Shown here: positions 2,237-40,675 of the stretch, in pieces
Position numbering within the stretch: position 1 is the first letter of the stretch
Layout of the letters: each line of letters begins with the position of its first letter
Origin: Leptolyngbyaceae cyanobacterium HOT.MB2.61
GTDB lineage: Bacteria > Cyanobacteriota > Cyanobacteriia > Leptolyngbyales > Leptolyngbyaceae
Reading direction: 5' to 3'
Assembly: GCA_023511615.1 (NCBI GenBank)
Contig: JAIMBL010000010.1
Span: forward strand, 1-48,597
Length of the DNA: 48,597 bases
Translations under genes and position numbers: made by a program
The notes under the pieces: generated by a model
Seen by the model: the letters and a program-made list of their open reading frames with translations, nothing else
What the model was told of the DNA's origin: nothing
Database searches by the model: none

Positions 2237-2299
2237 GAGACAGGTATCAAGGGAAGTGAGAGAGGGGGGGCAGGAAGAAGAAAGAACAAAGAAGGAAAA

Positions 2300-2422
2300 G
2301 GTTCTCCCAGCTTGCTGGTGAAAGAGTAGCGTACGCTACTCTTTCATCTAAAACAAAATTCCTGGACTACTGATTTTGTTTTGGTGATAAGCATCGCCTA
2401 TCACCAAACTCTCAAGAGAGCC
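2300..2422. mobile_element. Family A MITE, full copy 1 (123 bp)
   Basis: In inverse orientation to the copy at 36981-37103 and the same length. It holds three hairpins: the palindrome around AGTAGCGTACGCTACT, paired AAACAAAAT/ATTTTGTTT arms, and GGTGATAAG...CTATCACC. Ends are GGTTCTC and (opposite strand) GGCTCTC, a 6/7 inverted repeat. Flanked by AAGGAAAA (2292-2299) and AGGGAAAA (2423-2430), a 7/8 direct repeat. Non-coding. Confidence 0.88.
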
Positions 2423-2457
2423 AGGGAAAAAAGAATCCAGGAGTAAGAAATGGGAAA

Positions 2458-2550
2458 TATAGTCATCCTATTTGGATTGTGAGAAAAAGTTCCGCAAAAA
2501 CCCTTTCTCACAAAGCCTCTCCATCTCATAACTGATTTAGAACTGCTATA
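2458..2550. repeat. Family F palindromic element, copy 1
   Basis: Begins TATAGTCATCC and ends CTGCTATA, giving TATAG inverted ends. The centre forms a hairpin with TTGTGAGAAA and TTTCTCACAA arms. It aligns along its length with the reverse complement of 4302-4396 and with a truncated piece at 38271-38325. Confidence 0.75.
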
Positions 2551-2602
2551 CGTAGTAGGGAGTAGGCAGGTGGAAACTCAGAACTCAAAACTCAAAACGC
2601 TC

Positions 2603-3307
2603 CTACCCATCCCACTCCATCTCATCCAGTTTCTTGCGAACTTCCTGAATGTCCTGCCACATCAACCATTTAGGGCTGCCCTTCTCACGGGACTGATTTC
2701 GCAGCAAGTAAGCGGGGTGGAAAATGGGCATATACAGGCGTCCATCTCGCTCTACCCACTGTCCCCGAACTTTGGTAATTCCCTGTTTGATGCCCAGCAG
2801 GGTCAGCATGGCATATTTTCCAGTCAGCAAAATGATTTTGGGATTCACCAGACGAATTTGTTCGAGCAAATACCCTTTACAGGCTTCAATTTCAGCAGGC
2901 TGTGGGTCACGGTTTCCGGGGGGACGGCACTTAACCACATTGCAGATATAAACGTCATTTTCAGTTAATTTGACGGAAGCCAGAATTTTGTCTAAAAGTT
3001 GCCCGGCTTTGCCGACAAATGGAAGCCCGGTTTCGTCTTCGTTTTGTCCCGGTCCTTCCCCAACAATCATGATGGGAGCCTTTACATTACCCCGCCCGAT
3101 TACGGCGTTGGTACGGTTTTCACCAAGGGCACAGCGGAAGCACTGGTTGCAGTGAACTCGCATCTGTTCCATGGTTTGATAAGTGCCTGCTGGGATGGGC
3201 ACTTTTGCATCGGTTGGAATCAGATCGGGGTTAAATCCTTCGGGGGGAGAAGGTTCGCTGCTTGGGGAAAAAAGCTCAAACAGGCTGATCTGGTCTTGGC
3301 TCGCCAT
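2603..3307 (-). CDS. Uracil-DNA glycosylase, family 4 (Fe-S type)
   Basis: 234 residues from ATG. Removes uracil from DNA formed by cytosine deamination or misincorporation, starting base excision repair. The family 4 marks are present: GEGPG (83-87) followed by acidic residues and the PFVGKAG segment, VVKCRPPGNRDP (124-135), and the HPAYLLR motif (197-203). Four Cys that would bind the 4Fe-4S cluster are visible: Cys56 and Cys59 (C-x2-C), Cys127 and Cys143. The first 40 residues are a Ser/Pro-rich extension. The gene is divergent from the phosphoribosyltransferase and its stop lies in heptamer-type repeats (ACTCAAA units near 2580). Confidence 0.93.
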   Translation of the reverse strand: MASQDQISLFELFSPSSEPSPPEGFNPDLIPTDAKVPIPAGTYQTMEQMRVHCNQCFRCALGENRTNAVIGRGNVKAPIMIVGEGPGQNEDETGLPFVGKAGQLLDKILASVKLTENDVYICNVVKCRPPGNRDPQPAEIEACKGYLLEQIRLVNPKIILLTGKYAMLTLLGIKQGITKVRGQWVERDGRLYMPIFHPAYLLRNQSREKGSPKWLMWQDIQEVRKKLDEMEWDG

Positions 3308-4294: not shown

Positions 4295-4301
4295 CTTGAT
4301 A

Positions 4302-4396
4302 GATACAGCAGTCCTCAATGATTTGTGAAAGGAAAGGGCTTTGTGAAAAGGGATGCCGGTCGAATCCCTTTTCACAATCCAGATAGGATCGCTATA
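4302..4396. repeat. Family F palindromic element, copy 2
   Basis: Reverse-complement copy of the 2458-2550 element. The core is a perfect inverted repeat, TTGTGAAAAGGGAT and ATCCCTTTTCACAA, with a short loop (about 4341-4377). It lies just after the phosphoribosyltransferase stop and might also act as a transcript end, though no T-run follows. Confidence 0.78.
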
Positions 4397-20641: not shown

Positions 20642-20759
20642 TAAGTAGCTGGGTGCAATTAAATTAAAGATGGTTTTGGGAATAGAGGGGGTGCAATCCT
20701 CTGCTTGGGGGCAACGCCCCCAATTCCCTTTCTCCCAATCAAGTATGTCTACCTACTTA
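20642..20759. repeat. Family B palindromic element, copy 2
   Basis: TAAGTAGCTGGGTGCAATTA at the left and CTACCTACTTA at the right. The first 29 bases match 679-707. It begins one base after the cdaA stop codon. Confidence 0.78.
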
Positions 20760-21845: not shown

Positions 21846-22035
21846 CGGTAGTGATTGTGGTCAGGATGGGTACCAGGGTGGAGCCTCTGGTTGGGCCAAA
21901 CTCCCTCTCTAGTGCCAATGTCCTGACCTAGGTGGACCTAACAAGGTAATGATGAGCGGCGCTAGCCGCCATCATTAACGACTCAAAAATCATTACGATT
22001 TGGGCACTACTCTGACCCACCTGCGTAGAGCTATA
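21841..22035. repeat. Family C element with a nested palindrome
   Basis: Ends TATAGC (21841) and GCTATA (22035). A segment of about 90 bases inside (near 21929-22017) does not match other family C copies; it contains a strong palindrome, AATGATGAGCGGC/GCCGCCATCATT (about 21948-21976), and is bordered by TGACC on both sides, which suggests an insertion into the element. Confidence 0.7.
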
Positions 22036-25662: not shown

Positions 25663-25975
25663 GAGTTGAGGAAAGCGCATGAATGACTTTTGTCATCAGG
25701 GCCACGGCAATCAGTACCATTCCAGCCGCTTTAGTTAAGCCTGGGGTTTCCCCCAATTGCCACCAGGCAGCCATAACGCCAACTACCGGATTGAGCAAAA
25801 CCCCAAGCCTAGCGGTACCAGCCGGTAAACGAAATAGCCACAGCAAGGTAGCGATCGCAGAGGGCTCTCCTGAGAGTTTGGTGATAAGCTACTTTTCACC
25901 GGCAATCTGGAAGAACCCCGCAGAGATCCTAACGCCTTGCCAAAGTTCTGTATTCAAAAGGATTCTGACCATTTC
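25652..25975 (-). pseudogene. DMT/EamA transporter fragment broken by repeats
   Basis: Only the last two or three helices of an EamA-type drug/metabolite transporter are readable: ATLLWLFRLPAGTARLGV, then NPVVGVMAAWWQLGETPG and MVLIAVALMTK. Its C-terminus (THTS and stop) comes from the ATACCA element; upstream it is cut by the deleted family A element at 25863-25917. Beyond that, joining the flanks without the element and one target copy restores about 15 more codons in frame, ending near 25975. The rest of the gene (some 200 residues) is missing. Confidence 0.7.
25863..25917. mobile_element. Family A MITE, internally deleted copy (55 bp)
   Basis: Matches the first 27 and last 28 bases of the 123-bp element (GGCTCTC...GATAAGC joined to TACT...AGAACC), with the middle 68 bases gone; the junction falls at a shared GC. 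Flanks TCGCAGAG (25855-25862) and CCGCAGAG (25918-25925) match 7/8. Confidence 0.82.
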
Positions 25976-36240: not shown

Positions 36241-36852
36241 CTACAAAATGAGTGCCAGGTTTTCATTCAGGAGTTTGACTTGGGAGAGCTTATCCCAGGC
36301 GATCGCACCATCCCGCAAAGCAACGATCGCCCTCCGGTAATCCTCTGCGTGTCTAGCAATCTGATCTTGCTCTCGCAACTGATGGGTGCCATGCACGACA
36401 AAAGGTGGCAGATATTCCATCCCGCAAAGGCGAGCCGTTTGCTCAAAGGGGACAAGCAACTCTCGAATTGTAAAGAAGTTATACCCCTGCCGACAGTAAG
36501 CCTTGTCGCTCCCGCCAGTTGTAATGGCTGAAAGAAACTTCTTACCCCGCAGGGCCACTCCTTCATGGCCGTAGGCAAACCCGTGCTGCAATACCAGGTC
36601 TTGCCATTCCTTCAAAATGGCGGGGCTGCTGTACCAGTAAAAGGGATGGTGAAACACGATAATGTCATGGGCCAGCAGCAAGTTCTGCTCCAACTTCACG
36701 TTGATGTGGAGGTCAGGATATTCCTCGTAGAGGTCATGGACCGTTACTGAGTCCAGTCCCCTGACGGCCTGGATTAGATGCCGATTGACTCGAGATTTTT
36801 CTAGCGCTGGGTGAGCGAACAGGATCAGGATCTGGTTGGAGGTTCCTAGCAT
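36241..36852 (-). CDS. NAD(P)H oxidoreductase, KefF/KefG-like
   Basis: 203 residues. Flavodoxin-like quinone reductase: ILILFAHPALEKSRVNRHL at the start, the DIIVFHHPFYWYSSPAILKEWQD segment, and GKKFLSAITTGGSDKAY are hallmarks. KefF and KefG bind to KefC/KefB and are needed for full antiporter activity in enterobacteria. It is immediately upstream of the antiporter and on the same strand, so the pair should work together. Complete, with ATG start at 36852. Confidence 0.9.
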   Translation of the reverse strand: MLGTSNQILILFAHPALEKSRVNRHLIQAVRGLDSVTVHDLYEEYPDLHINVKLEQNLLLAHDIIVFHHPFYWYSSPAILKEWQDLVLQHGFAYGHEGVALRGKKFLSAITTGGSDKAYCRQGYNFFTIRELLVPFEQTARLCGMEYLPPFVVHGTHQLREQDQIARHAEDYRRAIVALRDGAIAWDKLSQVKLLNENLALIL

Positions 36853-36980
36853 AGGAAAGATAGATGGGTAGTGTGAGGACAGGAGCAGGTTTACTGATAT
36901 TTTCGCGAGGGTGATGACCTGGCTGTAGCCCCCCTATACAATTTGCGGCATCTATTCAATCTGTAATTCTGAAGGGGCAT

Positions 36981-37103
36981 GGCTCTCTTGAGAGTTTGGT
37001 GATAAGCAAGGCTTATCACCAAAACAAAATCAATATTTCAGGGATTTTGTTTGAGATGAAAGAGTAGCTTACGCTACTCTTCCACCAGCAAGCCGGGAGA
37101 ACC
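36981..37103. mobile_element. Family A MITE, full copy 2 (123 bp)
   Basis: GGCTCTC at the left end and GAGAACC at the right, three hairpins inside (GGTGATAAGC...GCTTATCACC, AACAAAAT...ATTTTGTT, AGAGTAGC...GCTACTCT). Perfect 8-bp duplication AGGGGCAT on both sides (36973-36980 and 37104-37111). Same length as the 2300-2422 copy, opposite orientation. Confidence 0.92.
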
Positions 37104-37144
37104 AGGGGCATCAGGGGGTTAAGTGAGTGGTAGATGTTGAGCGC

Positions 37145-38131
37145 TTAAACTTCCCATCCCCAGGATAGACGGGCAATCCAGAACCCAATCAGGGCGGCGA
37201 TCGCCAGCCAATCCCTTAATCGCAGTCGAAACTGGTACCATTGCACCCGGTGCTGATCAGGGCTCGTGAAGCCACGCACTTTCATTGCACTGGCCATTTG
37301 TTCAGCCCGCAACAGCAGATTCTCCAACAGTCGTTCTGCAACGACTAACCAGACTTCGATACTGCGGCGCATTCCCAATTTGCGCCAATTAATGGCACGG
37401 GTGCTGACAGACCGGATCAGGTTCTGAATTTCTTCCAGTACCAGCGGAATGAAACGGAGGGAAAGGGTGAGGGTGAGGGCAACTTCGGTGACTGGCAGTT
37501 TGAAACGGCGCAGAGGTTCCAGGCAGTTTTCAATCGCCGCCGTGATTTCCTCTGGCGCAGTCGTTAACAGGTACAGGTTAGCGCTATAGATGAGGGTAAA
37601 CAGCAGGGTACTGAAGCGAATGGCCAGATCGAGCGATCGCCGCGTCACCGTAATTGGTCCCCGTTTGAATAACACGTAGTTATAATCCGTTGGCTGGCGG
37701 AGAGAAGGGTTGCGCTGTTCCCCTGGCAAAGGGGGGGGAGACTGGCCAATCGCAAAGGGATTCCAGGATGATTGGGGGGCTGGCGGCAACGTGGCGGGCT
37801 GATTCTGAAACTCCAGTTCATCCGCAGGCAATCGAGGCTGAGACCGAACCTTAAGCCCATCAGGCATAATGGCTGTCAGTCCAAAAATTAGCAGACTCAA
37901 CCCCAATAGCCACACCATCTGCTGCCGCCACACGCGCAGGGGGATCATGGCCGAAAGGGTGATAGCGATGAGCAAACCGACCAGCAAAATCCGCCAGAGG
38001 GGATTTGCCAGCAGAGGAGCAACCAGGAACGTCATCAACCAGGCCAGTTTGATACGGGGATCAAGCCTATGGAGCCAGGTAACGGGTTGTTCCAGGTAAA
38101 GCCCCAGGGGAAGGGAACGCAGCAGATCCAT
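37145..38131 (-). CDS. Energy-coupling factor transporter T component (CbiQ family)
   Basis: 328 residues. Transmembrane coupling protein (EcfT) of ECF-type ABC importers for vitamins or metal ions. Helices near 28-60 and 67-90, a cytoplasmic segment, more helices, and the two coupling motifs with Ala-Arg-Gly-like MKVRGF (about 286-291) near the C-terminus. The stretch 105-150, with SSWNPFAIGQSPPPLPGEQRN, is a Pro-rich insert that other CbiQ proteins lack; it comes from repeat-like DNA. No ATPase or S-component gene is adjacent, so it likely serves a shared system. Plastid-like cyanobacterial form. Confidence 0.85.
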   Translation of the reverse strand: MDLLRSLPLGLYLEQPVTWLHRLDPRIKLAWLMTFLVAPLLANPLWRILLVGLLIAITLSAMIPLRVWRQQMVWLLGLSLLIFGLTAIMPDGLKVRSQPRLPADELEFQNQPATLPPAPQSSWNPFAIGQSPPPLPGEQRNPSLRQPTDYNYVLFKRGPITVTRRSLDLAIRFSTLLFTLIYSANLYLLTTAPEEITAAIENCLEPLRRFKLPVTEVALTLTLSLRFIPLVLEEIQNLIRSVSTRAINWRKLGMRRSIEVWLVVAERLLENLLLRAEQMASAMKVRGFTSPDQHRVQWYQFRLRLRDWLAIAALIGFWIARLSWGWEV

Positions 38132-40474: not shown

Positions 40475-40675
40475 GCTCTACACAGGTGCGTTAGGAGATT
40501 GGAACTAGGAGGGAGTGGGGGCTTTGCCCCCAGCCAGGGATTCCACCCTGCACCCCGTCCTAACCACTCTACGAAGGTGTGTTAGAACATTGGAATTAGG
40601 AGGGAGTGGGGGCTTTGCCCCCAGCCAGGGGTTCCACCCCTGCACCCCGTCCTAGCCGCAATGACTACCGCTATA
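40471..40675. repeat. Tandem pair of family C elements
   Basis: Two head-to-tail units of about 84 bp (each with GTGGGGGCTTTGCCCCCAGC and CACCCCGTCCTA), between TATAGC (40471) and GCTATA (40675). The left end shares TATAG with the four-hairpin element. Confidence 0.8.

Follow-up and report, generated by a model that had tools for sequence, protein, structure and literature searches.

A 123-bp MITE family that very probably bears the ends of an ISL3 insertion sequence in a Leptolyngbyaceae cyanobacterium

The window, meaning the whole analysed stretch of 48,597 nucleotides from Leptolyngbyaceae cyanobacterium HOT.MB2.61, contains three copies of a short, hairpin-rich repeat, which raises the question of whether these are the remains of transposition and, if so, which transposase moved them. 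The first full-length copy of 123 bp (2300..2422, + strand) is situated between rsgA (1046-2236, +) and a uracil-DNA glycosylase gene (2603-3307, -), and it is flanked by aaggaaaa (2292..2299) and agggaaaa (2423..2430), which match at 7/8 positions. The second (36981..37103, - strand) lies between a cbiQ-like gene (37145-38131, -) and a flavodoxin-fold gene (36241-36852, -), and atgcccct is found on the minus strand at both the left end (LE) side (37104..37111) and the right end (RE) side (36973..36980), an 8/8 match. A short form of 55 bp (25863..25917, - strand), in which LE is joined to RE at GTAGC followed by TTATCACC and ~67 bp of the interior is missing, is bordered on its own strand by ctctgcgg/ctctgcga (7/8; RE side 25855..25862, LE side 25918..25925). 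The original prediction had described two nearly identical 123-bp copies with GG ends in opposite orientation and flanking repeats of 7/8 and 8/8, respectively, and a 55-bp derivative with 7/8. Coordinates, lengths, ends and repeats were all confirmed, and the near identity was measured as 91% between the two full copies.

Copies, target duplications and age

The home genome (5.29 Mb, 383 contigs) harbors ~260 dispersed copies in both orientations, accounting for ~0.6% of its sequence. The LE pattern was matched 128+128 times at <=2 mismatches (134+132 with a slightly wider pattern) and the RE pattern 117+126 times at <=3 mismatches, and a reversed-pattern control gave 0 matches. The first scored set retrieved with the 123-bp query comprised the window copies and ~40 other full copies at 89-93% identity, and the density in the window (three copies in 49 kb) is near the genome-wide expectation.

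Target duplications were assessed in the window plus 100 further stretches (1.57 Mb), which were picked for holding copies and are hence biased towards them. This sample contained 142 full-length copies, 139 of which had both flanks readable; the 8-bp duplication was perfect in 62 of these, matched at 7/8 in 35 and at 6/8 in 15. A duplication of at least 7/8 was therefore present in 97/139 copies, compared with 0.8 expected when the right flanks were shuffled among copies, and no perfect duplication of 9 bp or more occurred among the 139. Exactly 94 of them are 123 bp in length, and the similarity among copies stops at the GG..CC termini. A genome-wide search for what would speak against transposition, namely copies lacking 8-bp duplications or similarity extending past the GG..CC ends, came out in favour of the proposed MITE with 8-bp target duplications. 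The family displays the features by which a MITE is recognised: it is short, non-coding and present in many sharp-ended dispersed copies, its outer 8 bp, GGYTCTCC, are inverted at the two termini, and its target duplication has a fixed length of 8 bp. Both ends share a further imperfect similarity, GGTGA-A, at positions 18-25.

All 96 copies of exactly 123 bp differ from one another in sequence. Their mean divergence from the consensus is ~6.5% outside the variable columns, with mutations being mostly transitions, and copies with perfect duplications carry 9.1 changes from the consensus versus 11.8-12.6 in those with damaged ones. Four copies were later invaded by another MITE. The sister species (G001), ~76-78% identical in DNA at the genes compared, retains a single truncated left end of the family, and taken together these traits speak for an old burst. 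In that species the orthologous cbiQ-flavodoxin spacer is without the MITE but unalignable, and no precise empty site could be matched to the window insertion.

The ISL3 connection and known relatives

From the GG-starting ends and the 8-bp duplications, the original prediction had inferred a link to the ISL3 family, of which a full-length member might mobilise the element. These two features alone are not unique to ISL3. A PF01610 profile search detected ISL3 transposases in 21/42 genomes of the family, and ISL3 elements of 1246-1247 bp in two of them (G015 and G023) combine a perfect 8-bp duplication with ends of the type GGCTCTTCCGGATCCGGGGTGAAAA / GGTTCTCCCGTTAGTACTGTGATAAC. A scan of ~85,000 species genomes yielded 80 loci; many of those belonging to this 1.24-kb clade, from named filamentous cyanobacteria, showed 8-bp duplications together with the same end pattern. 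Asymmetric ends of the matching type, together with perfect 8-bp duplications, were recognised in elements of 1236-1257 bp from Tychonema (L112), G015 (L072, L088) and G023 (L074) and at L113, L115, L124, L127 and L142. The ISL3 protein, tested on L072, matches the Pfam families DDE_Tnp_ISL3, Zn_ribbon_ISL3 and HTH_Tnp_ISL3.

The MITE ends GGTTCTCCCGGCTTGCCGGTGAAAG and GGCTCTCCTGAGAGTTTGGTGATAAGC fit those of the 1.24-kb elements left to left and right to right, the common asymmetric pattern being GGyTCTyC..GGTGAAA on the left and GGyTCTyC..GGTGATAA on the right. The 1.24-kb clade agrees with the MITE ends at 35-38/50 positions versus 21-30/50 for the other ISL3 clades, whose ends have TATGC where the 1.24-kb clade has GGTGA. 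The best end matches accompanied by a transposase reach ~18/25 positions on the left and ~19/27 on the right, a partial identity of about 70% (L112, L072, L074, L113, L127), and no transposase-encoding element with ends near-identical to those of the MITE was found. The element of Tychonema sp. LEGE 07203 (L112, ~1.24 kb) illustrates both sides of the comparison: it shares the 8-bp duplications and presents GGCTCTTCTGGCTTTTTGGTGAAAA on the left and GGCTCTTCTGGAGTCAAGGTGATAAGC on the right in register, whereas it carries a transposase and is devoid of the internal hairpins of the MITE. In this clade the transposase is encoded in two overlapping frames, which hold the Zn-ribbon/HTH and the DDE parts. 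The overlap lies near an A-rich stretch in several genomes (L072:1053-2205, L069, L071, L074, L090), which suggests programmed frameshifting.

The family is thus very probably a MITE bearing the ends of an ISL3 insertion sequence, with the same duplication length of 8 bp. A MITE of another transposase family with GG-starting ends and 8-bp duplications, for instance an IS1595- or IS256-like one, would account for the lack of a detectable ISL3 transposase in the host genome, but it is most unlikely, since the agreement exceeds GGYTCTYC: left positions 18-24 read GGTGAAA and right positions 18-25 read GGTGATAA, both in register with the 1.24-kb ISL3 clade and showing its left/right asymmetry.

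A transposase source in the same genome, which is usual but not defining for an ISL3-derived element, was not detected. The transposase search of the home genome covered the ISL3 family, and PF01610 found no member in either the home genome or that of the sister species; a tblastn search of the 1.57 Mb of home-genome sequence read directly was likewise negative. The home assembly is fragmented, several of its contigs ending inside MITE copies, and may on that account lack an autonomous copy. A presumed autonomous element of 851 bp with two facing left ends on contig C5 resolved into an ordinary MITE and a separate, solitary fragment of a left end, and a left-end-like match in G258, a possible 1191-bp element, encodes no transposase and was ascribed to chance. 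A plasmid search with the first 12 kb gave no match. The proposed mobilisation by a full-length relative fits relatives elsewhere but not the home genome, no ISL3 transposase having been found in it or in the sister genome.

Judged from the ends and the duplication length, an ISL3-family DDE transposase of the ~1.24-kb cyanobacterial clade would have acted in trans on an element composed of two non-identical recognition ends of ~25-30 bp each and a non-coding palindromic filler. It would have bound the GGTGAAA-type left and the GGTGATAA-type right end, excised the element at GG..CC and integrated it through a staggered cut of 8 bp. Insertions have survived almost exclusively in intergenic DNA. 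With no ISL3 transposase found in the home and sister genomes and with copies ~6.5% diverged, the family looks like an old burst followed by decay, its engine apparently gone; because the transposase is missing from the assembly, the copies are probably immobile at present.

The pattern search for the MITE ends gave matches in 7/388 genomes of the class. G057 (locus L106), which belongs to another family of the same class, harbors ~20 copies of a diverged 123-bp MITE having the same length, end motifs and 8-bp duplications, with H1 and H3 correspondingly placed; it differs in sequence and copy number, and its genome keeps one partial ISL3 transposase. A 112-bp element in G028 has the same kind of ends and an 8/8 duplication. 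An ISL3-linked MITE of 187 nt with 8-nt duplications has been reported in Microcystis aeruginosa PCC 7806 (PMC11448079), which resembles the 123-bp family by description in being cyanobacterial, non-coding, stem-loop-forming and mostly intergenic, and whose ends start with GGCTCTTCG, as in an ISL3 element (PMC11448079). In contrast with the 123-bp family, in which all copies are different, the Microcystis MITE has 31-33 identical copies, was recently active and shares its genome with ISL3 (PMC11448079). Nezha is likewise a cyanobacterial MITE, with a likeness to the 123-bp family by kind alone. In view of the Microcystis report, the ISL3-driven kind of MITE is already known, and the 123-bp family itself seems to be undescribed, no published description having been found in a partial literature search that did not include ISfinder. 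Its ~260 copies provide a large, clean set of a probably ISL3-driven MITE whose transposase seems to have been lost before it.

Hairpins and genomic placement

The three hairpins of the original prediction are real. On the + strand of copy 1, they are H1 (TGAAAGAGTAGC..GCTACTCTTTCA, 2319..2346), H2 (AAAACAAAAT..ATTTTGTTTT, with a 13-nt loop, 2350..2382) and H3 (GGTGATAAGC..GCCTATCACC, 2383..2406), and the consensus folds at -58.7 kcal/mol with H1 at positions 20-47, H2 at 51-83 and H3 at 82-108, closed by the terminal repeat. It is plausible that putative read-through transcripts across the element would be strongly structured.

Such hairpins, their intergenic placement and the same hairpin layout in the diverged relative of G057 might indicate that the repeats are retained as functional RNA or DNA structures, such as terminators, mRNA stabilisers or protein-binding sites, rather than as transposon remains. 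This explanation would also be served by the compensated double changes in H3 (12 versus 2.35 expected by shuffling), those in H1 being not significant (7 versus 4.3). However, most stem changes break pairs (79-81 cells versus 7-12 compensated), and concerted arms can also be obtained from shared ancestry or arm-to-arm template switching. Moreover, the exact 8-bp duplications, the single truncated copy in the sister genome, the lack of orientation bias and the lack of any Rfam match in the window all argue against it, making retention as functional structures a highly improbable account of the repeats.

The H2 loop of one copy (L060, G000:C103:4677, +) is reversed and complemented within an intact stem, and the H1 loops of the G057 relatives occur in both senses (L293 and L295 versus L106) with their stems intact, which suggests that hairpin loops are inverted or arms copied now and then, rather than that selection acts on an RNA. 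Reverse-complement symmetry of the H1 loop exceeds the column-shuffle null (19 versus 10.2), an excess for which shared ancestry may account; the corresponding symmetry of the H3 loop was rejected as evidence of inversion (34 versus 32.5 in the same type of null, p 0.37). Inverted loops of this kind may preserve traces of template switching within palindromes.

For placement, 112 insertions were compared with genes called by a simple codon-usage gene caller. Intergenic insertions made up 99/112 versus ~22% expected, the intragenic ones were found largely at the margins of genes, and copies between tandem genes showed no preferred orientation (25:23), a distribution that fits random insertion filtered by selection. 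The family also cautions annotators that transposon remains account for many of the intergenic hairpins of this genome.

The short form and other repeats

The original prediction had treated the 55-bp element as a single derivative with a 7/8 duplication; the duplication stands, and the element is one of at least ten of its class. The ten short copies of 55-56 bp (eight found by pattern, the window copy and L203:3480) have one junction in common, and each has its own 7-8/8 duplication. The favoured and fairly probable account is that one deletion derivative transposed independently; the version with only the two ends seems to have been mobile too. The same deletion might instead have recurred inside inserted 123-bp copies with no mobile short element involved; in-situ loss would likewise preserve the duplications, sequence variation among the short copies is about as great as among the long ones, and GC is common to both breakpoints. 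Recurrent deletion nevertheless appears the less probable course, as a 2-bp shared sequence hardly fixes a single junction, which is identical in 10/10 copies, and the sole further large internal deletion observed removes 72 bp. The naturally minimal form predicts the end bases needed by the transposase. A bolder and doubtful conjecture is that a bare element of ~31 bp on the left and 25 bp on the right transposed at least ten times, its ends alone being a sufficient ISL3 substrate, and that two cyanobacterial families have preserved the 123-bp arrangement of three hairpins because subterminal hairpins aid transposition or survival of the element.

Several other repeats occur in the window and elsewhere. 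A second MITE family of ~81 bp (GGTAGACCTAACAAGG...TTTGGGCACTACC) with apparent 8-bp duplications has 42 matches in the 1.57 Mb, including window 21931-22011 (+), L226:915-994, L217:10270-10350, L223:3862-3942 and L198:5406-5485; four of its copies interrupt H2 of the 123-bp element, within or beside the A/T-rich arms. A third family of ~95 bp (TATAGCGATCCTATCTGGATTGTGA...AGGACTGCTATA), which has palindromic ends at TA and looks like a TA-target (IS630-like) MITE, occurs in the window at 2458-2556 (+), directly adjoining MITE copy 1, and at 4300-4396 (-), with 24 matches in the 1.57 Mb of the home genome and ~38 in the sister genome. Repeats of 73-75 nt with TGGGGGC..GCCCCCA-type palindromes lie at 712-786 and 20674-20748, and at 40476-40548 and 40567-40639, of the window. 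Finally, a MITE copy at L193:4700-4890 is split by another small element, which has GGCTTTGTTGCA at its ends and TGTAAGCG as its duplication.
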